Notes under the pieces: model-generated
What the model was told of the DNA's origin: nothing
What the model saw: only the letters and a program-made list of their open reading frames with translations
Databases searched by the model: none
Translations under genes and position numbers: made by a program
From: an uncultured Pirellulaceae bacterium
Lineage (GTDB): Bacteria > Planctomycetota > Planctomycetia > Pirellulales > Pirellulaceae
DNA length: 57,557 nt
Assembly: GCA_938010615.1 (NCBI GenBank)
Contig: CALLUY010000187.1
Coordinates: forward strand, 1-57,557
Direction of reading: 5' to 3'
Shown: in pieces, positions 44,685 to 57,557 of the stretch
Position numbering within the stretch: the first letter of the stretch is position 1
Layout: the number at the start of each line of letters is the position of its first letter

Positions 44685-46310
44685 CTATTTAGCTTCGGGT
44701 TCTGACTTCGCGGCAGGCGCCGGCTCTGCATCTGGCGCGACTTCCGGAGGCGGATCGGGAACTTTACCCGAGTCGATCCACTTGCGAATTTCGGCTTCCG
44801 AATTCTTGATGAAATCCGAACTGGCGATCTTCTTCAGCGGAGAAAACAGCTTCTGAATATAAATCTTCTCGCGTTGGACGGGAGTCTGAGCCTTCAGTCG
44901 AATCTCTTCGTCCGCCATTCGTGCCCGAAGATCCTGTGGATTCTCAAGTTCAGAATACGTTTGCAAAATCTTGCGAGCTTCGTCTTTCTTGCCATCCTTG
45001 ATGGCCTTTTCAATTTGTTTTTGATAGATCTGCCGCAGAACTGCTAACGAAAGAATCTCATTTTCGATGCCCGTTACGACACCCGTGGCCAGAAGACGAG
45101 TGTCGTCGGCGGTGATCGTCGTCTCCAGTTCATTGCGAAAGCCAGGAATGACTGGAATCTTCTTTAGCCTTCGTCCACCGCGTCGGACCAGCAACATTCT
45201 CATTCCATCGCCGGTCGGGATTCGAATCTCTCCGCGCCAATCAGTCTTACCGTGATACTCAAGCTCCTTCGTAATGTCACCCGGTTCAACCGTTGCAATG
45301 TCGTAGCCTTCGAGCGGCTCAACCTCTTCACCGCCACGCGAAACCAATCGCAAAACGGTTGTCCCATCACCCGGACGAATCACGAGCCCCAACTTTTCAG
45401 CTCGCTTACTCTTGCGACCGGCCAGCGGTGCACGTACCGACGAGTACACTTTTCCGTTGATCACGGACCCTTCGATGTCTTCGATCGCAATGAATGTGAA
45501 TGGAACCGCATCAAGCTTCACCAATTTTCCGCTGCGGTCGGATCGCACCACAACCGGCAACAATCGATCGGTATCGCGAACGAAACAGGGGGAGTTCGTA
45601 TTGGTGACGACTTCGGGGACCAGGTCTTCGTTGATCTCCGTTCGAATACAGGCTTCGATTCCTCGAGCTCTCAGTTCGGCTTCGTTCTTCATGGTGACTT
45701 CGTCGATCCGCGCGATCGGCATGAAGGCGCGACTGACCAGCTTTGACGCCAGCGAACCAACCGAAGACATCAGTCTGGTTTGCGCTTTGACGGTAGGGCC
45801 AATCTGCTGCGTCCGAGCGTCAATCTCTCGAACACTAACGTCGAATCCGCCAGCGTTTGCCTTGATTCGGACCACCATCAGTTTGTCGTAAAACTCAAGC
45901 TCTGGTTCTGCCAAAACTTTCGCAACGGCCTCATCATCGATCTGCGAATTAAGCAACTTCCAACGCCACTGACTTGGCGGCGTGCCAACGTTGACGTTCC
46001 AACCGCTTGGATCAATCAGTTGACATTCGGCGCTGATCCGTTGGCAAATTTCTGATTCGCTATTGGTCAGAGCTGGCGAACCGTCAAGGCAAAGCCACGC
46101 GGCGACTTGGTACGGACGAGTCTCCCAAGCACGCTTCGATGCCTCGGGTTCTTCCGTGATTTTGATTGAGCGAAATTCGCCTCGCCAAGACGGCGGTGCA
46201 GGAGTCGCCTCGGCTTGTTCGGATTCAGGATTTTCCTGAATCGCAAAAGCAGGGCAGCACAAAAGCGTTAGCAACAGCAACGATGCAGATATTGATCGAC
46301 AACTGATCAT
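44685..46310 (-). CDS. secreted protein of unknown function with C-terminal helical region
   Basis: This is a 541-aa protein starting at the ATG at 46310, four bases overlapping the upstream stop (ATGA), with a signal peptide (MISCRSISASLLLLTLLCC to AFA). The body is beta-rich; it includes PYQVAAWLCLDGSP, a region FVRDTDRLLPVVVRSDRSGKL and WRGEIRIPTGDGMRMLLVRRGGRRLK. A helical segment at about 440-520 (KQIEKAIKDGKKDEARKILQTYSELENPQDLRARM) resembles a TPR-like hairpin. It ends in a Pro/Glu/Ala tail. No family recognised. Translational coupling to the solute-binding gene places it in the same periplasmic system. Confidence 0.75.
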   Translation of the reverse strand: MISCRSISASLLLLTLLCCPAFAIQENPESEQAEATPAPPSWRGEFRSIKITEEPEASKRAWETRPYQVAAWLCLDGSPALTNSESEICQRISAECQLIDPSGWNVNVGTPPSQWRWKLLNSQIDDEAVAKVLAEPELEFYDKLMVVRIKANAGGFDVSVREIDARTQQIGPTVKAQTRLMSSVGSLASKLVSRAFMPIARIDEVTMKNEAELRARGIEACIRTEINEDLVPEVVTNTNSPCFVRDTDRLLPVVVRSDRSGKLVKLDAVPFTFIAIEDIEGSVINGKVYSSVRAPLAGRKSKRAEKLGLVIRPGDGTTVLRLVSRGGEEVEPLEGYDIATVEPGDITKELEYHGKTDWRGEIRIPTGDGMRMLLVRRGGRRLKKIPVIPGFRNELETTITADDTRLLATGVVTGIENEILSLAVLRQIYQKQIEKAIKDGKKDEARKILQTYSELENPQDLRARMADEEIRLKAQTPVQREKIYIQKLFSPLKKIASSDFIKNSEAEIRKWIDSGKVPDPPPEVAPDAEPAPAAKSEPEAK

Positions 46311-48688
46311 TTGGCCGCCTTCTGTTGGTTCGGCTTCTGTTGGGTCGCATAGCCTTCGATCTTCCAACGACGGATATTTTGATAGAGGTGAATCAAGTCG
46401 CGACCAAGTCCGTAGACGTTTTTGCGAAACGCAAAGTGCTCCTTGATTTGGTACATCGGTATCACGGAGAGATCATTCGACACCTGACGATGAATTCGAC
46501 GCAACGTTCGGCTGGCTCCCTGCCAAGACTCGCTGTATCCCAACATCTGCAGCGACTGGTCGACCGGCGACGAAACTGATTTGGCAATCCCATGAGTTCC
46601 CATGATTCGTGTTGCATCGGTCAGAGGTTCTTCGATTGCGGCTTCCACGTAAAGCAAATCCCAATTGTCATCTTCGGGGAATGAGACGGCTTCATCGAGC
46701 GGCCTAAGCGTCGTAGAAATCCCAGACTCTTCCCAGCTTTGTTTGATTTTGTAGCAAGCAGCGGTCGCCAAAGATCCTGACGGATGAGCCAGCACGATCG
46801 ATGGCGGTGCAGAGCGACCCTCTGGATATTTCGCTGTCTTTGAAGTGTACGCCATGTGGCTCAACACCATCGAAAGCCGTTGCTGATACGGGAGCGGCTT
46901 AACTTTCAAGTCGTAGCCGTAGGAAACTTGATCGTATTCATCGCTGCCGATCGGAAACGGCCCGCTCAACGGCTCACAGCCATCAATGTCGGCGCCACCA
47001 AAAACATCGTTGACGATTCCTTCGCGATCGATGCCGGTTGAAAGACTACGGATCAACTGCATCGATCCTTTGTACTCGCCACGAATTTTCGGGACCAGAA
47101 AGTGAACGGTTGGGATCGCGTAAGCTCGAACTTCGATCCCTTTGGCTTTCCGAAGTTTCGGAATATCTGATAGGGCAGGGCGGTCAACAACGTCGACTTG
47201 GCCTCGAATAAGTGCATCAACGGCATCCGAAGAGGCTCGATAATACTCTTCGATCACAACCGGATACTGTTTACCGGGCTCACGTTCGTAGCGATCGTTG
47301 AATTCAAATGTGCACTCGTCGCCTTTTTTGGAAGTCATCGCATAAATGCCATCCTGGATTGGCTGGCCATCTTCAAGACGATCAGAATACTGAAAACGAG
47401 CAACCGCAGCGGGGCGAACAAATGGCTTTCGCAACTGGATAGCGACTCGATTGCTGTCGACTGAAACAGAATTAAAGATCTTCGCCCAAGCCGGCAAGTA
47501 GTTCGGCGAAAGGGCGTCGGCGTGATCCAACAACCTCGACGCGATTTGATTTGGCGTCGCCCGAGGTAGCAACGGATCAACTTGTTCATCAAAAATGAAC
47601 GCGTACTCCATGCCAAGGTCATCTGTCCGTTCGAATCGCCCATTGAGAAATTTGTATCGCCCGCCTTCATCACTAAGCCCCGTCAATTCAATCAACGTTC
47701 GCTGAGTCAATCGTCCGACTCTGCGAGAACCCCAATGGGCGAGCCGATTCGGGTTGGCGTCACCGGCGGGCTGATTCACCGCCACGACAATCAATGGAAA
47801 CTGTTCTGTAATTCGAACTTGAATCTCGCGTATCTCAGGCAAGCCTGAATTAATCCGTTCAGCAAGTCGCGAAAGATAGTGAGCCTGCCGCCCGTCTCCC
47901 GCAGCTGCTGCTTTAAGCGCATCGCGGGCGACCTGCTTCGACTGATCAATAAATCGTTTTCGCCAAGCTGCAACGAAATCCTTGGCTTCATCTCCGTACT
48001 GACGTTCGATCGCAACAAGAGCCGACTTAATATATTCGGCATCTCCATTTTCAAATCGTCGCTGAAGAAGGCCGTCATAACATTGCTGGATAATTTCCAT
48101 CAACGTCGCGTCAACATCTGGAATTTTGAGCGAAGGATCTTTCTCGTAGAGATCTTCGAAAATCGAAAGAGAAAGCTCGTAGTTTCCGTCTTCCAAGTTT
48201 GCGGCTGCATCCTTGAACAGACAGCTCTGCAGTCGCGCACGGACTTGAGGATCGCTCGCACCGCCATTGTCGTAGACGTACAGCAAGTTCCTCAACGCGG
48301 CAGCATATTCTTTTCGACTTAGAAAATCTTCGGCTTCTTCGAGCAACAAATTGTTGAACGGAACATATTCGTCAATGTGCTGATACGGGACCTGAAGTAG
48401 ATACTCCGAATCTTCACGAAATTCAAACTTTAGCGTTCCTTCTTTTGGAAACGGCAGCTTGGGATTTTCGAGTGGCACGATCCGGATGATGACACTATCG
48501 CTCTTTTCGTCCAAGTAAATTAAATCGAAGGGCTCTTCGTCCATCAGTGGCGTGGGCCACTCGCCCTCTTGAACGACTTGAGCATCGGACTGATTTGTCG
48601 CCCACAGAAAAACAGCGCACAGTCCCATCGCCAGCAACGCCAAGCGATGCCATCGAACCACCGAATCAATTTTGTATTGTGAAATCAT
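46307..48688 (-). CDS. orphan family 5 (peptide/oligo) solute-binding protein with N-terminal repeat domain
   Basis: This is a 793-aa exported protein (hydrophobic signal about 14-37, ending QSDAQ, no lipobox). Residues about 115-280 are helical and TPR-like (LLEEAEDFLSRKEYAAALRNLLYVYDNGG). From about 300 the sequence follows the SBP_bac_5 pattern: LTQRTLIELTG, DALSPNYLPAWAKIFNSVSV, IQDGIYAMTS, DALIRGQVDVVDRPA, RSLSTGIDREGIVNDVF and a C-terminal SDLSVIPMYQIKEHF. Such proteins normally feed a dipeptide ABC transporter, but no permease or ATPase gene is nearby. It sits between the propeller gene (28-base gap) and an unknown secreted protein, and may be a ligand-binding part of the envelope system. 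Confidence 0.83.
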   Translation of the reverse strand: MISQYKIDSVVRWHRLALLAMGLCAVFLWATNQSDAQVVQEGEWPTPLMDEEPFDLIYLDEKSDSVIIRIVPLENPKLPFPKEGTLKFEFREDSEYLLQVPYQHIDEYVPFNNLLLEEAEDFLSRKEYAAALRNLLYVYDNGGASDPQVRARLQSCLFKDAAANLEDGNYELSLSIFEDLYEKDPSLKIPDVDATLMEIIQQCYDGLLQRRFENGDAEYIKSALVAIERQYGDEAKDFVAAWRKRFIDQSKQVARDALKAAAAGDGRQAHYLSRLAERINSGLPEIREIQVRITEQFPLIVVAVNQPAGDANPNRLAHWGSRRVGRLTQRTLIELTGLSDEGGRYKFLNGRFERTDDLGMEYAFIFDEQVDPLLPRATPNQIASRLLDHADALSPNYLPAWAKIFNSVSVDSNRVAIQLRKPFVRPAAVARFQYSDRLEDGQPIQDGIYAMTSKKGDECTFEFNDRYEREPGKQYPVVIEEYYRASSDAVDALIRGQVDVVDRPALSDIPKLRKAKGIEVRAYAIPTVHFLVPKIRGEYKGSMQLIRSLSTGIDREGIVNDVFGGADIDGCEPLSGPFPIGSDEYDQVSYGYDLKVKPLPYQQRLSMVLSHMAYTSKTAKYPEGRSAPPSIVLAHPSGSLATAACYKIKQSWEESGISTTLRPLDEAVSFPEDDNWDLLYVEAAIEEPLTDATRIMGTHGIAKSVSSPVDQSLQMLGYSESWQGASRTLRRIHRQVSNDLSVIPMYQIKEHFAFRKNVYGLGRDLIHLYQNIRRWKIEGYATQQKPNQQKAAK

Positions 48689-48716: not shown

Positions 48717-51700
48717 TTATGAACCGGTCGAAAGTACGTGAACCGTTCCATCCATCCCGGAAAAGAAAACTTTACCGTCGGTGAACGTTGGTGCGTGAAC
48801 GATTGGCTGCCCAATGTCCATCTGGTTCGCATCCTTGCCCTGTGCATCCAAGAAGAGCACCTTGCCACTTTGCAGAATCAATGCCAGCTGACCAGAGATA
48901 ACCTGCGGCGGACACGCGAATCGTTCACTGGAAACATTCCGCACCCATTTTTGATTCAACGATTCGTCGAACAAAACCACTTGGTCACTGTCGAGCAGCA
49001 CAAGAACTCCTCCATCGACAGCCCAAGGCCCGTCGACAACTTGACCGTTGGTAGGAACGCGAGCAAGCTCGACCGCTCCAGCGTCAACTTTGACAATCGA
49101 GTCCGTTTGATCGACTCGATCGGCAGCAAAAACAACGCCTCCGGCAGCGGCAAGTTTTCCAACAAAGTTACCTTTCGACTCAAGTGAACCAGCACTGCGA
49201 ATCGATCGCCCTTTTTCAATTTCCAACAGATAAAGCGTACTCGTGGTGGCTCCACTGTTGGGGCCGACCTGTGTGGCAATGGCGACCTTACCTTCGCCAG
49301 TCTCAACGGGACGAACCCATTCAACTTTCTTGCCCGGAGCAACCGGAGGCAGAAACGCTTCGCCGCTCATTCCGCCGGTCGAAGGATCCACTGCGGCAAC
49401 TTGTCCGTTGGAGTTCGCGACAATCAACTGGCCGTCAACCGTAATCGGCGTACATGCAGGATTGTCCGATGGAGCCGCGTAGTTCTTAAGCTCCAACGAA
49501 CCGCTGGCGACATCAATGACTGCGAATTCGCGAGAGCCTTCGCCGCCGGCGCTGACCCAAACATTGCCGCCAAGTTTTGAGGTGCCCGAGAAATTGAGAT
49601 TTTCGATGACCGTGCTTGCTTTGGCTGCCTGCCTGACAAATCCGGTGCTTGAGGATTGCGACACATCAAACAGGTCGCCCTGGCTGGAAACCGCAAACTG
49701 CGACCCACCGGCCGCGATGACAGGACCGGCAACTGCGCCGCCAAAGTCATTTCGCCAAATGGGCTCGAGCGTATTGGCATTCACCAAAGATGCGGACACC
49801 ATCCCCGAACCAATGCGCTTCCGTACGTGGAAGAGTTTGTCGTCCAATTTCAAACAAGGTGCGACAAACGAGTCAGTTCCATGCTTGAGGACCTTCAGGT
49901 CGAATTTCCCGAGGTTACGTTTTACTTTATAGAACGCGGCACCTGTGCCACAGACCCACAGGCTACTACCATCGGTTTGAATAAACGACGGCTGGCCTTC
50001 CTTGCTGTCGAAACGTTCGCTGGCAAATTTTGAAATCGGCGTTTTGTCGTCACCTTGATTGAATTCCAAAATCACCATCTGGCCACCATCACTCACGGCC
50101 AACAACCAACGACCGTATCGCTGGAGGTGTCGAGTCACGGGCCCATCGGTAACACGACGAATGACTTGCACCGGATCAGGCCCCAACTGCAACCCGTTTT
50201 CCTTTGGACGCAATACAAACATGTCACAGAAATCACCGCCGTTGACCAAAACGATCAAATGGCCGTTGTACATATACGGCGGAACGGAGATGCTTTCGCT
50301 GTAGTGACCGAGATAAAACACTTCCTTACAGAGCATGTCTTCGGTGCCGATGACATACAGATTGGACTTCAAACCGGCTTGATAGATCAGCGGATCCTGC
50401 TCACTGATAAAGCATCGCGTGTTGGCACCTTGTGGAAGCTGCGCCGAACCAAGCAACTGACCGCTGGCTGGATCGAGTCGCAGAAGCTTCCCTGAGGCAG
50501 TCGTCACGACCAGCTTTTCGGGCGTCATCGCCGGAGTGAAAAACGTTTCTCCAATCGGAACGCGCCAAACAAGCTCTCCACTGGCAATCTTCAGTTTCAG
50601 CAACTCGCTGCTGGCAACGTCAGAGACGAGCACATGTTCTTCGTTCATCTTTTGTGGCTGAATCGACGAGCCAAGCCCGACAAACTTACGCCATAAGATG
50701 TCGCCAGAGCCAGCATCAAATCCGATGACCGAACCGTCAACCAAAGTCGGAATCACTTCGCCTTGCAAGCCTTCGTCAGGACTGCCGACGACGGCGCCCA
50801 GGACATAAGTTTGCTGGATCAATGAAGGGGCCAAATCGCTTTTAGGTTCGATGTTTACATCGGCAGCAGAAATCAGTTTTGACTCGAGCTCACTTGTCTT
50901 CACCATTAGCTCACGCAACTCTGCACGTGCGCCCAAGTCGCCATACTTTCGCGTCAGATCCTGGAACGTCTTAAAGGCGTCCTCTGTTTTACCTTGTGCA
51001 CCGAGTTCGTTAATTGCCACCAGCGCGACCGAGTAATCCTTCTCCTTTTTGATCGAACCCTCGATCGTGCGAATATTATTCTCGATCAGATCGATGTTCT
51101 TTTTATTGGTCGGTGCCTTCCGCGACGAACTCGGCACGAAGGAGACATTTTCGACGAGCTCTTTCCTGAACTTAGTCGCTTCGACGAGGTTGTCCTCCAT
51201 CGCCTTGAGTTCCGTGTCCTTCAGCATCCTGGTTGTCAGCTCAGCCACCGAACGCGGCAACATCAAACCAAGGTCGTCGCGAATGAAATCCAGTGCGACA
51301 TCTTCGTCTTCCGCATATTCAGGCAGCTTGATCGACGCTCGGTCCAGCGTTTCTTTCCACAGCTCGGAATCGTACGAATCTCGCAACAGACTCTGAACTC
51401 GCCGAGCTTTTGCTTCCTTGATAAATTTGTGGCGTGGGTACGCTTCGATGTACTCGTCGTAAGCCTTGATCGCCGCCTGATAAGAAGAATTTTCAAAGTG
51501 GTCGCGAGCGTTGTTGTACATCGCCTCTGGCGTCATATTGCTGACGGAAAACCACAGAAAAGTCCCGACCATCAACAGGAAGCCGAGCACACCAAAGCCA
51601 ATGTACGGCCAACGACTGTTCCACTGATCGCGTTTGTCTTTCTTGCCGCTGAACGTTGGCTTCAGCTTTTCTTCGTCAGCCGATGGATCTGTGAATTCGT

Positions 51701-52112
51701 CGACCGCTTCGGGACCGTAGTCGTAGGCGCCAGCCGGAATGGCATCGACTTGAACTTCGTCGACGGGCGAGCCAACTGGAACGATCGAGCCTGCATCTGC
51801 CCGCGTCTGCGCGTCGCGATTGGATCGAATCGGTTTCCGCTTAACTTCCGCTGATTCCGTTTCCTGCTCATCATCGTTGACACCGAGCATCAAATCGTCA
51901 GTGTTCTTACGCGAGACTTTTGGCATCTCGCCTTTCATGATCTGACGAGCCTGATCTTCTGTGAGCTGTCCTTTGCGGACGAGATAACTGAGAACGGCAC
52001 TGACTTTGACGGTGCGTTCCGGGTCTTCAATCTGGATACGAATCTTGCGCAGTGCCTTGGATTCGATCGAGCCCAGGCTCTCAAGTTTCTGTAAAAGTTC
52101 CTTGGGCGTCAT
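48717..52112 (-). CDS. membrane-anchored TPR plus PQQ-type beta-propeller protein
   Basis: This is a 1,131-aa protein. Residues 1-60 form a small helical module (VLSYLVRKGQLTEDQARQIMKG) like that preceding kinase domains in planctomycetes. An acidic linker leads to a transmembrane helix at about 169-191, so the N-terminus is cytosolic and the rest periplasmic. A TPR-like part follows (200-260, DHFENSSYQAAIKAYDEYIEAYPRHKFIKEA), then a helical stretch, then a propeller from about 435 onward with PQQ/BamB-type blades (GSVIGFDAGSGDILWRKFVG, GELVWRVPIGE, GQVAAVDPSTG). BamB-like propellers are protein scaffolds. The start codon touches the ExbD stop (TGAATG), with GAGGAACT upstream. Confidence 0.85.
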   Translation of the reverse strand: MTPKELLQKLESLGSIESKALRKIRIQIEDPERTVKVSAVLSYLVRKGQLTEDQARQIMKGEMPKVSRKNTDDLMLGVNDDEQETESAEVKRKPIRSNRDAQTRADAGSIVPVGSPVDEVQVDAIPAGAYDYGPEAVDEFTDPSADEEKLKPTFSGKKDKRDQWNSRWPYIGFGVLGFLLMVGTFLWFSVSNMTPEAMYNNARDHFENSSYQAAIKAYDEYIEAYPRHKFIKEAKARRVQSLLRDSYDSELWKETLDRASIKLPEYAEDEDVALDFIRDDLGLMLPRSVAELTTRMLKDTELKAMEDNLVEATKFRKELVENVSFVPSSSRKAPTNKKNIDLIENNIRTIEGSIKKEKDYSVALVAINELGAQGKTEDAFKTFQDLTRKYGDLGARAELRELMVKTSELESKLISAADVNIEPKSDLAPSLIQQTYVLGAVVGSPDEGLQGEVIPTLVDGSVIGFDAGSGDILWRKFVGLGSSIQPQKMNEEHVLVSDVASSELLKLKIASGELVWRVPIGETFFTPAMTPEKLVVTTASGKLLRLDPASGQLLGSAQLPQGANTRCFISEQDPLIYQAGLKSNLYVIGTEDMLCKEVFYLGHYSESISVPPYMYNGHLIVLVNGGDFCDMFVLRPKENGLQLGPDPVQVIRRVTDGPVTRHLQRYGRWLLAVSDGGQMVILEFNQGDDKTPISKFASERFDSKEGQPSFIQTDGSSLWVCGTGAAFYKVKRNLGKFDLKVLKHGTDSFVAPCLKLDDKLFHVRKRIGSGMVSASLVNANTLEPIWRNDFGGAVAGPVIAAGGSQFAVSSQGDLFDVSQSSSTGFVRQAAKASTVIENLNFSGTSKLGGNVWVSAGGEGSREFAVIDVASGSLELKNYAAPSDNPACTPITVDGQLIVANSNGQVAAVDPSTGGMSGEAFLPPVAPGKKVEWVRPVETGEGKVAIATQVGPNSGATTSTLYLLEIEKGRSIRSAGSLESKGNFVGKLAAAGGVVFAADRVDQTDSIVKVDAGAVELARVPTNGQVVDGPWAVDGGVLVLLDSDQVVLFDESLNQKWVRNVSSERFACPPQVISGQLALILQSGKVLFLDAQGKDANQMDIGQPIVHAPTFTDGKVFFSGMDGTVHVLSTGS

Positions 52113-52718
52113 TCAGAGTTCCTCATCCGTCGTTTCGATGGAAATTTTCTCGATTCCGGCGACGACTCCTGCGTCCCACGCCGAAATTACTTTCTTGTGC
52201 ATCGAGTCGACATGAGCACGGATAATCATGCGACCGACGTTGTCGGTGGTTTTGGATTCTTTTACCCGCGTCCACATTTCGCGTTCGCTCGGGCATTCGA
52301 CTTCTTCGTCCGATCGTGACGTGACGTAGAAGGTATTGTTTTGGTCGATCAGGACCGTGACGTAGTCCGGATCCTGCTCTTCTTCGACGACTTTATCCGA
52401 TGGCTCGTCGGTTTCTGGCGGCGGTTGCTCGATCGATTTTTGCAGCGAGAAACTGGCGGTCACCATAAAGAAGATTAACAGCAGGAACGTGACATCCACC
52501 ATCGGCGTCATGTCGAGTTCATCTTCCGGAATCTTGTCCTTATTCCCAACAGTGGCAGGCTCTTCGTACTCTTCATCGATCTCGTCTTCGTGATCTTCGA
52601 AGCCCTTCCAACCCATGTCCTTGTAGTCACCGTCCTCGTGAGTCTTGGCCCCTTTGGCTTTGAACTCGAGAACAATTTCGTCCTCGTTCACATCCGGCTC
52701 TTCAGAATCGGCACTCAT
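52113..52718 (-). CDS. ExbD/TolR family biopolymer transport protein (second, long N-terminus)
   Basis: This is a 201-aa protein. An unusual acidic cytosolic extension of about 66 residues precedes the single membrane helix (about 69-92, DMTPMVDVTFLLLIFFMVTASF), which carries the proton-relay Asp75. The periplasmic domain (about 95-200) shows DPDYVTVLIDQNNTFYV and MIIRAHVDSMHKKVI. ExbD/TolR works with ExbB/TolQ to convert the proton gradient into force on TonB or TolA. Its ATG overlaps the first exbD stop (TAATG) and is preceded by a strong GGAGGAG site, so the two subunits are coupled. Confidence 0.92.
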   Translation of the reverse strand: MSADSEEPDVNEDEIVLEFKAKGAKTHEDGDYKDMGWKGFEDHEDEIDEEYEEPATVGNKDKIPEDELDMTPMVDVTFLLLIFFMVTASFSLQKSIEQPPPETDEPSDKVVEEEQDPDYVTVLIDQNNTFYVTSRSDEEVECPSEREMWTRVKESKTTDNVGRMIIRAHVDSMHKKVISAWDAGVVAGIEKISIETTDEEL

Positions 52719-53197
52719 TATTGCTCCTCCTCCACGCCTACGTAGACTTTTCGCTCCGCCGCCATCTCAGATCCAGCCACACCACGGCGCACCATCTCGA
52801 CGGTGCCCGTTTTTACCTCGCCGGCTGCCTTGATCAGGATCGATGTCTTTTCAGGATTGGCGCCCAATTCATCCTGCACGAACTGAGCGATCTCTTCCTC
52901 GATACCGTCTGGGTCGGTAGCGAGAACCGGATCGTTCTCGTTCTTCCCTTTGAAGATCGTGTAGTTATCCGTTCCTTCTTCCAAAGTCACCAACAACGTC
53001 ACGGCAGCCTTCTCGGGAATGGCAACGCCGTAGCTGGCTTTGGGCAATTCGATCGCTGCCTGCGGATCCATTTTGGAGGAAACAACAAAAAACGCCAGCA
53101 ACAGGAACACGATATCAATCATCGGCGTGACATCGAGTTCACCGTCGTCAGGATTTCGCTTTCGCTTGGGAAGCTCAAGTCCGGATTCTTCTTTCAC
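52718..53197 (-). CDS. ExbD/TolR family biopolymer transport protein (first)
   Basis: This is a 159-aa ExbD of standard size. A short basic N-terminus (KRKRNPDDGELD) is followed by the helix DVTPMIDIVFLLLAFFVVSSKM with proton-relay Asp28, then a periplasmic domain (ITVLVTLEEGTDNYTIF-type strands and KTSILIKAAGEVKTGTVEMV). It differs from the following ExbD in having no acidic extension and in its periplasmic sequence. Two ExbD copies next to one ExbB occur in several systems and can give a mixed pentamer-dimer motor. It starts 12 bases after the exbB stop. Confidence 0.92.
   Translation of the reverse strand: MKEESGLELPKRKRNPDDGELDVTPMIDIVFLLLAFFVVSSKMDPQAAIELPKASYGVAIPEKAAVTLLVTLEEGTDNYTIFKGKNENDPVLATDPDGIEEEIAQFVQDELGANPEKTSILIKAAGEVKTGTVEMVRRGVAGSEMAAERKVYVGVEEEQ
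52724..52733 (-). promoter_or_regulatory. strong Shine-Dalgarno for the second exbD
   Basis: GGAGGAGGAG on the minus strand lies inside the 3' end of the first exbD, five to six bases before the overlapping TAATG, and supports the start at 52718 and translational coupling. Confidence 0.75.
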
Positions 53198-53209: not shown

Positions 53210-53854
53210 CTATTTGTTGGGGAATCGGATATTTGCTTCCTTGAAGATCTCAAGGAACTGATTGAGTCCGTAGCCGACCAAGTCTTCCATCTTTTTGATT
53301 TGGACGTTGATGTAAGCCGTACCAATAACCAGAGGAATCGCGATCGACAGACCCAACGCCGTCGTGATCAAAGCAAACTGAATGTCTTTCGCCAACGCAC
53401 TGACATCAACGGAAGCTCCACCAACGGACAGCTTTGCGAAAGCCGCCATCATACCGAGTACCGTTCCCAGCAGCCCAATCATGGGAGCAGCCTTAATGAC
53501 CGTATAGACCCAACTGAGTCGGTACTCCAAATCTTGTAGCACATCGCGTTGAAAGCGATCGACCAACAACTGTTTGACTCTAGAGTAACCGAGCTTTCGA
53601 TTGGCGATTGCCATTTGCGAAAGCTGACAGGTGGCCCGCCGGTCTCCATCACAGAGTTCGTTCGCGGCATCGTAGTCGCCTCGCGAAAGCGGCTCTTCGA
53701 TCGCTTCCAGAAACGCCGTCTGCTGCTCTTCGCTGGTGAATTGCTTTTGCCTCACGCGACTGATAACCATCACGATGCAAAACGCGCCCCAAAGAGCAAT
53801 GAAGAAAATGACTACATAGATGCAGTTGCCAAGTATCGTAAAAACGGATTCCAT
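53210..53854 (-). CDS. ExbB/TolQ/MotA family proton channel protein
   Basis: This is a 214-aa protein with three membrane helices (about 8-32, 112-138 and 150-175). The hallmark AAPMIGLLGTVLGMMAAFAKL lies at about 121-141, and the third helix TTALGLSIAIPLVIGTAY carries the conserved Thr pair region. The cytosolic part between helices 1 and 2 (EPLSRGDYDAANELCDG) is typical. It forms the pentameric stator around which ExbD turns. GGTTGGGG upstream is a plausible ribosome site. A 254-base gap with a hairpin separates it from the preceding paralog gene. Confidence 0.93.
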   Translation of the reverse strand: MESVFTILGNCIYVVIFFIALWGAFCIVMVISRVRQKQFTSEEQQTAFLEAIEEPLSRGDYDAANELCDGDRRATCQLSQMAIANRKLGYSRVKQLLVDRFQRDVLQDLEYRLSWVYTVIKAAPMIGLLGTVLGMMAAFAKLSVGGASVDVSALAKDIQFALITTALGLSIAIPLVIGTAYINVQIKKMEDLVGYGLNQFLEIFKEANIRFPNK

Positions 53855-54108: not shown

Positions 54109-54957
54109 CTAATGAAACACGAATCCGGAAACGGATATTATGAAGCCGTCGTCCAAGCTCGAAATTTTCAGTTTTGTTTCGGTGACCTCATCGAGGTTTC
54201 GACCCAATTCCTTCAACTTGACAGCCTCCAACTTGAGGATTTGGGACTCAACAGAAGCGGGATAGAACTGAACGAACAGCATTTCTTGCACGGCAAGCCC
54301 CGAGTCACCTACGATTTTTCGATCCCATCGCTTCAAGGCTGGATGCGAATGGGCAAACCAAATGGCATCTTTTTCACTCGATCGGCTCGAATGCGTCACG
54401 GTCGCGTCGGAGGACAGCGTTCCAACTCTCCAAATATCGCTCTCACGACTGGCAATGACGCCGATTTCGATACCGAAGAAATCCAACTGCCTTTTGTAAT
54501 CCTCGATACTTTCGACTTCGTAACTGATTTTCCAACGTCGTGACGGAGGAATCAGCTCCGGAACTGGATTCGGATCGAGCACACCGGGAGTCCCGACACC
54601 AAACTCACCGCTTCCAAGACGACCGTCTTGAGCAAGGATCTTTGACACCGAGTCTTCGACTGACTCAACAAGCGAAACAAGCTCGATGCCAGTCGCACCG
54701 CTAGAGACGAATTCCAGTTCCTGTTCTGAGTCGCCTTCTGCTTGATCCGCCTCGACTTCACCCCAGTCTTCGTCCAGTGGAGGAATGAATCCAAGCTGAG
54801 ATTGATCATTGCCAAAGAGCCAAACCGCAAGCAGGCTCAACACGACGAATCCGCAGATAGAGATCGAAGCAATCAGCCCTGCGTTAAAACGATCATAGCT
54901 GGACGCTTTCGGCGAAAACCGGTTGTCGACCTCCAACTCGCGAATCACTGCGCCCAT
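54109..54957 (-). CDS. single-pass periplasmic protein B, paralog of its upstream neighbour, ExbBD-associated
   Basis: This is a 282-aa protein not recognised as a named family. The topology is TonB-like: a short cytosolic N-terminus, one helix (about 26-50, LIASISICGFVVLSLLAVWLF), an acidic Gly/Glu linker (60-135) and a C-terminal domain (about 137-282). The C-domain shares with the neighbour RWKxxYEVxxxxxYKRQLDxF, IxIGV, a central RxxEx region, KxWDxxI and VQFYP. The membrane part also matches (SxYDRxxAxLxA, GFVV, VW). It lacks the TonB His-containing helix and TonB domain signature. I infer a force-receiving partner of ExbB-ExbD. The gene starts 17 bases after the paralog stop. Confidence 0.8.
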   Translation of the reverse strand: MGAVIRELEVDNRFSPKASSYDRFNAGLIASISICGFVVLSLLAVWLFGNDQSQLGFIPPLDEDWGEVEADQAEGDSEQELEFVSSGATGIELVSLVESVEDSVSKILAQDGRLGSGEFGVGTPGVLDPNPVPELIPPSRRWKISYEVESIEDYKRQLDFFGIEIGVIASRESDIWRVGTLSSDATVTHSSRSSEKDAIWFAHSHPALKRWDRKIVGDSGLAVQEMLFVQFYPASVESQILKLEAVKLKELGRNLDEVTETKLKISSLDDGFIISVSGFVFH

Positions 54958-54974
54958 GGCATCTCCAATTCCAA

Positions 54975-55841
54975 TTACTTAAAAATACAGTTCACGATCG
55001 TGAACTTGAAACCACCACCGTCTGCTTCAACTTTAATGTTCGTTCTACGAACCTCTTTTAATTCACGACCGACGCTCTTCAAGAATTCATCTTCGGCTTT
55101 GGCGATCTCCAAACGCGTATCCTGTGGGTAGAACTGCACCATCAAGGCTCCGTTGATATCGACGCCGGCTTTCCTGGAGATCTCCTGATCCCACTTTTTC
55201 ATCCGCAGCTTCGCGTGAGAAAACCGAAGCGACTTGGCTTCCCGTTCGCGAGTCGTTTTCTGGATGTTGACTCCCTTGGAGACGTTGCTGATTCGCGAAA
55301 TGACTTCACCGACTGGCTGAACCACGCCGATCTGAATATTGAAGTAGTCCAACTGACGCTTATAAGTGTCCTTGTTGTCGACCTCGTAGACAATTTTCCA
55401 ACGCTTGTAGTCTGGAATCCCTTGACCGGAACCAGATGGACCACCTTCGCGACTCCCGTAGCCGCCACCCTTACCCATCACGGCAGCATCGCCGCTGACA
55501 TGTTCAGAATTCGCACGGATCGTGGAAACAGCATTCGAAACGGCTTCCAGTGCCTCGGCTAACTGAGGCGTTTCGACTTCTGCGAAATCCTCGACGCCGG
55601 GATCGAGTTCGTCATCCTCGAAACCTTCCGGTTTGTCGTTTCCGTCGTCGCCAATCGTCGCCTGTTCAAACGGAGGCGCGATATTGCGTTCAAACTTGAA
55701 GACCGATGTAAACCAAACCAAAAACAGCGCCGCCACGACAAAGCCGACCAGCAAGATCAACGCCGTCAACCAGGCACTCAGGCGATCGTAAGCGCTGGTC
55801 TTTGATTGGATCTTGTCCAGCGGTTTAAAAAACGTACTCAT
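54975..55841 (-). CDS. single-pass periplasmic protein A, paralog of the following gene, ExbBD-associated
   Basis: This is a 288-aa protein of unrecognised family with the same layout as its neighbour: short N-terminus, helix (about 25-47, LTALILLVGFVVAALFLVWF), an acidic linker (55-110, rich in Glu/Asp), a Gly/Ser stretch (GGGYGSREGGPSGSGQG) and a C-terminal domain (about 143-288) with YKRWKIVYEVDN, KRQLDYFNIQIGV, KKWDQEIS and MVQFYPQDTRLEIAKAEDEFL. Two such paralogs beside ExbB/ExbD suggest a heterodimer or two alternative force transducers. It starts 12 bases after the squalene-cyclase-like gene stop with GAGAAC upstream. The RxxE... KxWD... FYP pattern could seed a family search. Confidence 0.8.
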   Translation of the reverse strand: MSTFFKPLDKIQSKTSAYDRLSAWLTALILLVGFVVAALFLVWFTSVFKFERNIAPPFEQATIGDDGNDKPEGFEDDELDPGVEDFAEVETPQLAEALEAVSNAVSTIRANSEHVSGDAAVMGKGGGYGSREGGPSGSGQGIPDYKRWKIVYEVDNKDTYKRQLDYFNIQIGVVQPVGEVISRISNVSKGVNIQKTTREREAKSLRFSHAKLRMKKWDQEISRKAGVDINGALMVQFYPQDTRLEIAKAEDEFLKSVGRELKEVRRTNIKVEADGGGFKFTIVNCIFK

Positions 55842-55853
55842 GTTTGTTGTTCT

Positions 55854-57557
55854 CTATTCCAAAAGCTCGGCGTCAGGGCGAATTTCAAGGTACCACTTGG
55901 TCCACTGTTGCTTCAGCCGCGCCAACTCAAGAAGGTTATCCTGCTGGTTGCCTCTGTCCTCAAAGACAAACGTATCGAACTTTCGACTGACCAATCGAAG
56001 CCCGTTGTGAGCGTGAATCGCGATCGTCGGATCCGGGTCTCCCATCGCGTACAGCAAGGCCGGAACGTTATCCATATCCTGCTCGCCGGACAAAAACCTG
56101 ATCGCCACGAGTCGGCGATAGTAATTTTTTTCGCTGATCATCGTTTTCAAAAACGAGGTGACTTCTCCGCGCGACCGTTTGCCCTGCGATTTGAATTCGC
56201 GAACGGAACGCTTCATCGCCTCGGTGATCTGCTGCAGTTGACGATCGTCAAGCGTGGCATCAGAGAGAGATGCAATCAAACCCTGTAGGCTCTTTTCTGC
56301 TTCCGAGGAAACGATCGTGCCTGATTTGCTTTGCGTAAGCGTGCCTGCCCCGAAACCTTCACCGCCCAGCAACTCACTACCTGTCGGCGGCAGAGAAATA
56401 ATTTCGCTTGCTCGTACAAGGAACAGCAACGAAAACGCCGTGTTCACATTGAGCGGCATATTCACGGCGCGTTGGTGACCCTCAACGGCACCTGATTCGT
56501 TTTGATACTCTTCGATGTAGTCGACGCCATCGTCGTACCACGAACTCAATGAGCTACCCAAGTTCCCGTCAGCCTGCTCTTTGAAGTATGCATAACGCTC
56601 CAGAGCATACATGAAGTACGAATTCCACGTGTTGATCGGAAATTGAAACTGACTTGAGTACCAAGAGTTACCCGCGCTCTTGCAACTTGCCAATTTCCCT
56701 CGTTCAAATTTGACAACCGGACCCGTTCCATCACCCCATGCCGCCTGAAGATCGCCTTCTTTGTCGTCAGCTGGAGGGACGTAAACCGTGACATTTTTGG
56801 GGAGGCCCAGCGACGAATCTGCACTGGCAGTGGCCATGTTTTTGACCCGTTTTGAAAGCCGCAACATGTCCGCCAAAAGATAAACCGAACTCAGCGACGC
56901 TGAGTGGATTGAGTTCGTTCCGGCGACGTTACCTCCTCCGAGCTGCGCTTTGTAGCTCCAAGTTCCACTTTGCGCTTGATAGTCGACGTAGAACTGCAGC
57001 AGACTGTGCGCGTGCTTTGGATCGAGCGGAATGCGATGCTGGCGTGCGACGAAAAAGGCGAGTGCCCCGAATTGGGATTGGGAAGTATCACCGGTCGAAT
57101 CACGACTATAGGTAAACGCACCGTTGCTTAACTGGCGTTCAATCAACGTATCCAGAATCTTCATGATCTGAGGCTTGTACTTTTTGGCGTCGTACTCCGC
57201 CAATAGAATCAAGGCCAACGCTGGGAAATAAGTTTCCCGATTTTCAAGCACCTCGGCGGCTCCGGAATCGACCATCCCGGCAATTCTTCGGACCACCCTT
57301 TTAACCATCGGATTGTCCGTTGGCACAGTGCCGTCGTAGCGTTTGTAGTATTCCAAAACCGCAAGTGCACAAATCGGTCCCGACTTGCCCGAGGCGCTAT
57401 CGGACTCCAAAAATCGCGCCGCTTTGTCAGCGATCCTGACGACTTTGTCGGCGTAGGGGTCTTTGTATTTTTTCTGAGCCCAACAGGCGGTCGGCGAGAA
57501 GCATCCGAAACATACCGCGACCATCAACGAGCCAACGAGGGCTCTTTGCGACCTGAA
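55854..57557 (-). CDS. secreted squalene-cyclase/prenyltransferase-repeat protein with HEAT-like tail (5' partial)
   Basis: The frame stays open to the right edge. From the edge it reads FRSQRALVGSLMVAVCFGCF to CWAQ, a signal peptide whose start lies a few residues outside; the internal TTG at 57527 is not the likely start. Counted from that TTG, residues about 30-380 contain QW-like toroid repeats (LIERQLSNGAFTYSRDSTGDTSQSQFGALAFFVARQH, YQAQSGTWSYKAQL, SSVYLLADMLRL). The catalytic DxDD motif of squalene-hopene cyclase is not visible, so it is probably a binding toroid. The C-terminal 90 residues look HEAT-like (YRRLVAIRFLSGEQDMDNVPALLYAMGDPDPTIAIHAHNGL). As the first visible gene of the run it may encode a periplasmic scaffold. 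Confidence 0.82.
   Translation of the reverse strand, partial: FRSQRALVGSLMVAVCFGCFSPTACWAQKKYKDPYADKVVRIADKAARFLESDSASGKSGPICALAVLEYYKRYDGTVPTDNPMVKRVVRRIAGMVDSGAAEVLENRETYFPALALILLAEYDAKKYKPQIMKILDTLIERQLSNGAFTYSRDSTGDTSQSQFGALAFFVARQHRIPLDPKHAHSLLQFYVDYQAQSGTWSYKAQLGGGNVAGTNSIHSASLSSVYLLADMLRLSKRVKNMATASADSSLGLPKNVTVYVPPADDKEGDLQAAWGDGTGPVVKFERGKLASCKSAGNSWYSSQFQFPINTWNSYFMYALERYAYFKEQADGNLGSSLSSWYDDGVDYIEEYQNESGAVEGHQRAVNMPLNVNTAFSLLFLVRASEIISLPPTGSELLGGEGFGAGTLTQSKSGTIVSSEAEKSLQGLIASLSDATLDDRQLQQITEAMKRSVREFKSQGKRSRGEVTSFLKTMISEKNYYRRLVAIRFLSGEQDMDNVPALLYAMGDPDPTIAIHAHNGLRLVSRKFDTFVFEDRGNQQDNLLELARLKQQWTKWYLEIRPDAELLE

Follow-up and report, generated by a model that had tools for sequence, protein, structure and literature searches.

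Organisation of the locus

A tandem pair of paralogous genes lies near one end of contig CALLUY010000187.1 from an uncultured Pirellulaceae bacterium (assembly GCA_938010615.1), a stretch of 57,557 nucleotides that is called the window here. Open reading frame (ORF) A, at positions 54975-55841 (-), encodes 288 aa and ORF B, at 54109-54957 (-), encodes 282 aa; both belong to a protein family that we name TLK, and they are referred to below as copies A and B. The gene order in the window is PT-A-B-ExbB-ExbD-ExbD-(TPR+beta-propeller)-SBP5, with the ExbB and both ExbD genes directly downstream of the pair on the same strand. In textbooks, the force arms of ExbB/TolQ-type motors have long been TonB and TolA, and the cell plan of planctomycetes has long been debated. 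In this study, the TLK family, its layout, its domain prediction, its synteny, the co-inheritance of its anchor type with an ExbB subtype and its repeated duplication were computed. We consider it likely that TLK is a family of two-module, motor-coupled inner-membrane force transducers, with A and B as paralogous members.

Copies A and B align over 280 residues with 31% identity (E 6e-44), far beyond chance, and have in common the motifs SxYDR, GFVV, VW, RWKxxYEV, YKRQLDxFxIxIGV, KxWDxxI (or a close variant) and VQFYP. Copy A, the slow copy, consists of a cytoplasmic N-terminal end, an anchor helix at residues 17-47 (SAYDRLSAWLTALILLVGFVVAALFLVWF), an acidic disordered stretch, a helix at residues 94-110, a Gly/Ser-rich linker with conserved G127/G129/G133, and a C-terminal domain at about 144-288, encoded by 54978-55418 (-). 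Copy B, the fast copy, has the same anchor and C-terminal domain, while its linker is acidic with less Gly and the Gly motif is partly lost. The initial annotation had described tandem paralogs with a common membrane part, a common C-terminal domain and unlike linkers, and the coordinates, alignment and motifs agree with it.

Predicted layout and the C-terminal domain

Searches of A and B against Pfam, NCBIfam and PADLOC gave nothing credible, and matches to DUF5053, HGxxPAAW and similar families were rejected as far below the cut-offs. No chain related to A or B was found by sequence search of the PDB. In Pfam, A and B had no TolA match, and 105 TLK C-terminal domains had no TonB_C, vWA or SPOR match.

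In an AlphaFold2 model based on 94 sequences, residues 17-47 and 94-110 are helical, with a disordered acidic stretch between them; a Gly-rich stretch then leads to a compact domain that starts near residue 144 and has a predicted local distance difference test (pLDDT) score near 97. When modelled in isolation from 105 sequences, the domain of copy A was predicted as b-a-b-b-b-b-a-b-a-b-b (pLDDT 96, predicted template modelling score (pTM) 0.88). A helix followed by an extended disordered linker and a globular tip is the layout expected of a TonB/TolA-like transducer, so far as the model goes. Foldseek gave no match at E 0.001 against the PDB, with the full model or the domain alone, and none for the domain against predicted viral structures. 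TonB_C, TolA, vWA and SPOR (FtsN-type) folds were rejected as the identity of the tip, having no Foldseek support from either model. The predicted fold therefore appears to match no known structure, in a comparison that comprised the PDB and viral predictions. The absence of known TonB/TolA domains noted in the initial annotation is borne out by Pfam and by the fold comparison, in which the predicted domain retrieved none of the TonB, TolA and FtsN-type folds.

Distribution of TLK and its gene neighbourhood

A scan of contigs with one sequence, a method that reaches close relatives only, found a single relative (L001, from an uncultured Pirellulaceae, 57% identity). Single-sequence searches of genomes detected TLK in 140/149 genomes of the family of the window and in 37/58 of the order sample, and a profile built from alignment A1 detected it in 181/199 genomes of the class Planctomycetia. 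The profile search extended as far as the phylum Planctomycetota, where, in a sample of 294 genomes, only six weak matches confined to the anchor and linker were obtained outside the class. Restricted to anchor and linker, these six (E 1e-5 to 1e-3) correspond to vWA-like proteins, toroid fusions, a low-complexity frame and an unrelated ORF, and were rejected as homologues.

Of 101 regions from several orders, selected non-randomly to cover many families, 72 have an ExbB gene within 600 bp downstream of TLK on the same strand. The complete gene order PT-TLK-ExbB-ExbD-ExbD-propeller-SBP is found again in the taxonomic order of the window and in family f21 (Planctomycetaceae-like; this label, like Gemmataceae for f111 and Isosphaeraceae for f112, was derived from class and family sizes). 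Some of the exceptions to adjacency are contig ends and others are real. Gemmataceae and genomes G193, G166, G180 and G167 have the order PT-TLK-propeller-SBP and lack motor genes there, and in Isosphaeraceae TLK stands alone.

No description of TLK was found in the open-access literature. The main text of an essential-gene paper on Planctopirus limnophila is without mention of these genes, and the salt-induced exbB/exbD of Rhodopirellula baltica (RB12053, RB12055) could not be tied to the TLK operon.

Co-inheritance with an ExbB subtype

A profile of the operon-type ExbB (alignment A2) was built to test coupling independently of adjacency, and was applied to 36 chosen genomes and then to the 199 class genomes. 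It identified an ExbB of 170-262 bits at an unlinked site in 13/13 Gemmataceae tested and in G193 and G166, the second-best ExbBs not exceeding about 122 bits. Most of these unlinked genes lie in ExbB-ExbD-ExbD cassettes with no evident transducer adjoining. In the ExbB tree they fall with the operon ExbBs, with a Shimodaira-Hasegawa-like approximate likelihood ratio test (SH-aLRT) value of 87 for the split, which one long-branch row disturbs. Distance from ExbB was rejected as a sign that TLK is not motor-coupled in Gemmataceae, as the ExbB subtype is present there at an unlinked site.

Across the 199 genomes, counted by hand from the two search tables, operon-type ExbB accompanies main-type TLK in 134/137, the three misses (G586, G598 and G601) being assemblies 77-85% complete. 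It occurs in none of the 44 genomes with an alternative-N-terminus TLK (G180, G167, G176, 37 of f112 and 4 of f115) and in none of the 18 without TLK. N-termini were read directly for G180, G167, G176 and four f112 sequences, and the other f112 and the f115 sequences were placed in this group from their family and a weak match. Fisher's test of TLK type against ExbB subtype gave p 2e-48, a value that assumes independent genomes, which these related genomes are not. Independent concerted changes were seen inside families: G180 in f17, G176 in f13, G494 in f113 and G516 in f111.

TLK is either adjacent to an ExbB/ExbD-type motor or co-inherited with one. Homologues are not mostly far from ExbB/ExbD genes, and the Gemmataceae, whose motor genes lie elsewhere, nevertheless inherit them together with TLK. 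A different account would make PT, TLK, the propeller protein and SBP5 a motor-independent periplasmic complex, working in peptide or glycan capture or in peptidoglycan tethering, with the ExbB-ExbD cassette merely a frequent neighbour. The persistence of the block without adjacent ExbB/D in Gemmataceae, G193, G166, G180 and G167, and the lack of an operon-type ExbB anywhere in G180 and G167, speak for such a complex. Gemmataceae, G193 and G166 keep the same ExbB subtype unlinked, however, and neighbourhood alone does not explain why the subtype tracks main-type TLK in 134/137 genomes versus 0/62, so that we regard this account as very unlikely.

Two anchor types on one C-terminal domain

No His occupies the position of the TonB His in any of 107 main-type TLK sequences, A and B included. 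Their anchor has the pattern S-x-[YF]-[DE] before the helix, followed by G33, V36 and W43. In G176 and in Isosphaeraceae the TLK tip is carried by a TonB-like S-x3-H helix, and the G176 locus is directly beside ExbB-ExbD-ExbD. The missing His of the initial annotation accordingly holds for A, B and the main type, but not for G176 and the Isosphaeraceae sequences read. Of all single observations, the G176 protein, a His-type TLK beside a motor cassette, speaks most strongly for the C-terminal domain being a transducer tip.

Where the operon-type ExbB is missing, the N-terminal half of TLK differs and the C-terminal domain stays. In G180, a genome without operon-type ExbB, the TLK of locus L196 (8151-9005 +) begins with a lipoprotein-like signal (VRLAVLLLGTAVAIGC) instead of a membrane anchor, and in G167 the N-terminus is a plain helix; in both the Gly linker is gone and the C-terminal domain, PT, propeller and SBP are retained. 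Because the N-terminal half varies with the ExbB subtype while the C-terminal domain and its neighbours stay, the former may be inferred to serve the motor and the latter the periplasmic partners, as judged from sequence comparison.

A further observation concerns the His-type proteins themselves. Loci L190-L193 and L198, from Isosphaeraceae-type genomes and the distant genome G176, have the N-terminus YS-x-x-H-E-[FL]-P...S-x3-H-G on the TLK tip in common, which suggests a second anchor type that is either old or acquired by transfer.

Copy number and duplication

A single TLK is found in most genomes and loci, and more than one copy is present at 14 fetched loci. In a tree of 64 sequences, tandem copies group with their own lineage: the window groups with L068, and the tandem copies of L077, L080, L087/L088, L107, L117, L118 and L198 are placed apart. 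TLK has therefore been duplicated many times, independently. Most pairs combine one short and one long end branch (0.37 for A and 1.31 for B), and the fast copies tend to lose the Gly motif (G127, G129, G133) while keeping the anchor and most residues of the domain.

The proposal that the tandem pair defines the family did not hold, as most members are single and the pairs are repeated independent duplications; the wider claim of a new TonB-like family is upheld by the layout, the neighbours, the co-inheritance with ExbB and the distinct tip. Of the two arrangements originally offered for the pair, a heterodimer or alternative transducers, the first, if obligate, is excluded for the whole family by its single copies. 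An obligate A-B heterodimer on the motor would fit the 14 multi-copy loci and the anchor and domain residues retained by fast copies, but with a single copy in most genomes and with copies pairing inside lineages in the tree we hold it to be quite improbable. Single copies and within-lineage pairing make a single transducer the ancestral state, and a heterodimer could be a local invention. A specialised second transducer explains the pairs more simply than an obligate heterodimer does, with alternative transducers or subfunctionalisation both possible. For the genome of the window we propose that A is the conserved transducer and B a faster-evolving variant on a common motor.

Proposed mechanism

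In the mechanism proposed for TLK, the His-less helix, S-x-[YF]-[DE]-R-V...G..V..LF..W, would dock on a dedicated ExbB-ExbD proton motor, and the disordered acidic and Gly-rich linker would span part of the periplasm. The globular C-terminal domain would engage periplasmic partners encoded alongside, namely the toroid PT, the TPR-propeller protein and the SBP5 protein, and as protons pass through the motor, the domain would be pulled or turned against them. It is docking, force transmission and partner binding that we infer. Our guess is that the work would be Tol-like, in envelope tethering or outer-membrane organisation, and not TonB-like receptor opening, because the partners include propeller and TPR proteins. 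A Pfam scan of the genome of the window (84% completeness) detected no TonB_C and no Plug domain, which makes classical Ton transport appear unlikely as the job of TLK.

Several observations weigh against the transducer assignment. The SHLS residues of TonB and TolA have been described as essential for stator association, the importance of the His being structural and not proton-carrying (PMC8928145), and this His, essential in both E. coli proteins, is missing from main-type TLK; according to a title cited in the same paper, TonB His20 tolerates replacement by Asn. For most Isosphaeraceae the N-terminus was assigned on the basis of family and match strength, four having been read. Genomes G180 and G167 have the TLK operon and an operon-type ExbB nowhere, so part of the job of TLK may not need the motor.

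A possible alternative force arm is the TPR-propeller protein, which likewise spans the inner membrane; with its cytoplasmic domain, one helix and periplasmic TPR and propeller, it could act as the transducer and would leave TLK as a motor-bound scaffold or regulator. Its conservation in the operon almost equals that of TLK, it combines an inner-membrane helix with a BamB-class periplasmic domain, and TolB, a beta-propeller protein, takes part in Tol-Pal. Yet the S-x3-H subfamily shows that a TLK anchor can be a motor-docking helix, the TLK anchor type follows the ExbB subtype, and the helix-disorder-tip layout belongs to TLK. Propeller anchors from 16 loci, compared by eye only, gave no clear result. 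On balance a propeller transducer seems unlikely to us, and TLK remains the preferred force arm.

A broader reading stands at about even chances: TLK would be a new class of proton-motor force transducer, already present in the ancestor of Planctomycetia and kept in nearly all its members, with an anchor that docks on ExbB in the absence of the SHLS His and a tip fold absent from the PDB, and it would drive a planctomycete-specific envelope machine, made up of toroid, TPR-propeller and SBP5 proteins, that replaces Ton/Tol. As a force arm, TLK would be another independent tip after TonB/TolA and the vWA arms proposed in 2025, the anchor His, essential in E. coli, would be dispensable across most of a bacterial class, and docking rules would become testable with two anchor types on one tip. 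A conserved and so far unstudied envelope machine of Planctomycetes is also indicated by the TLK operon.

Comparison with known systems

Like TonB and TolA (PF03544, PF06519, PF13103), TLK has one N-terminal membrane helix, a long low-complexity periplasmic linker and a globular C-terminal domain, its gene adjoins ExbB/TolQ and ExbD/TolR genes, and one subfamily carries the S-x3-H motif. It differs in a C-terminal domain without sequence or fold match to TonB_C/TolA, in the lack of the SHLS His from its main branch, and in a linker that is acidic and Gly-rich, whereas those of TonB and TolA are Pro-rich or helical. The closest precedent is found in the PVC group, where vWA-tipped transducers with SHLS have been described next to tolQ and paired tolR genes (PMC12204202, 2025); these transducers likewise have a TPR protein nearby. 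They keep the SHLS His and a vWA tip, neither of which is present in the main branch of TLK; TLK is of the same kind with another tip and, in that branch, another anchor. The vWA-like proteins of the phylum (L172, L173) have at most weak anchor/linker similarity to TLK.

The Tol-Pal system (TolQRA-TolB-Pal-CpoB) resembles the TLK operon in uniting a motor, a transducer, a beta-propeller protein and TPRs. In contrast to Tol-Pal, TLK has no TolA domain, the propeller of its operon is BamB-like and inner-membrane anchored, and the operon contains no Pal/OmpA gene; the one OmpA-domain match in the genome of the window is on another contig.

Neighbouring genes and toroid-tipped proteins

The gene preceding TLK, at 55854-57557 (-), encodes PT, an exported alpha-alpha-toroid-like protein whose reading frame may continue past the contig edge at its 5' end. 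Relatives of PT show matches to squalene-hopene-cyclase domains and HEAT repeats. The ExbB/TolQ-like subunit, which belongs to the TLK-associated subtype, is encoded at 53210-53854 (-) (PF01618), with the conserved GLLGTV and TT motor residues. The ExbD/TolR-like subunits 1 and 2, at 52718-53197 (-) and 52113-52718 (-) (both PF02472), have their membrane Asp in TPMIDIVF and TPMVDVTF. All three match Pfam above the curated cut-offs. Motor residues are intact, GLLGTV and T165 of ExbB being invariant and the ExbD membrane Asp present in 141/157 sequences.

The gene at 48717-52112 (-) encodes the inner-membrane-anchored protein with TPR and a BamB-like PQQ_2 beta-propeller, as assigned by Pfam. 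An FHA domain lies N-terminal to the anchor in its relatives L133 and L181, and the propeller genes of L120 and L198 have an apparent Ser/Thr-kinase-like part in that place; a phospho-signalling input to the machine is possible. The conserved operon member at 46307-48688 (-) encodes an exported protein in which a long N-terminal region precedes an SBP_bac_5 (peptide-binding type) domain. Directly behind it, at 44685-46367 (-), is the gene for an exported 560-aa protein of unknown family, without Pfam match, whose relatives occur in 30 fetched loci, the window included; it is perhaps a further operon member.

Seven MotA/ExbB-family genes are present in the genome of the window. Beside other ExbB genes in this genome lie those of two large proteins, L203:4190-6163(-) and L205:7578-11561(+), each with a TonB-like S-x3-H helix, a Pro-rich linker and a C-terminal cyclase-like alpha-alpha toroid, which from these sequence features are probable toroid-tipped transducers. 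In other planctomycete classes, L169:1360-2913(+) and L170:1411-2958(+) are His-anchor and toroid fusions, a fused version of the PT gene. The toroid of these four proteins is of the same kind as PT, but is fused to the anchor, whereas the TLK operon encodes it as an exported protein of its own.
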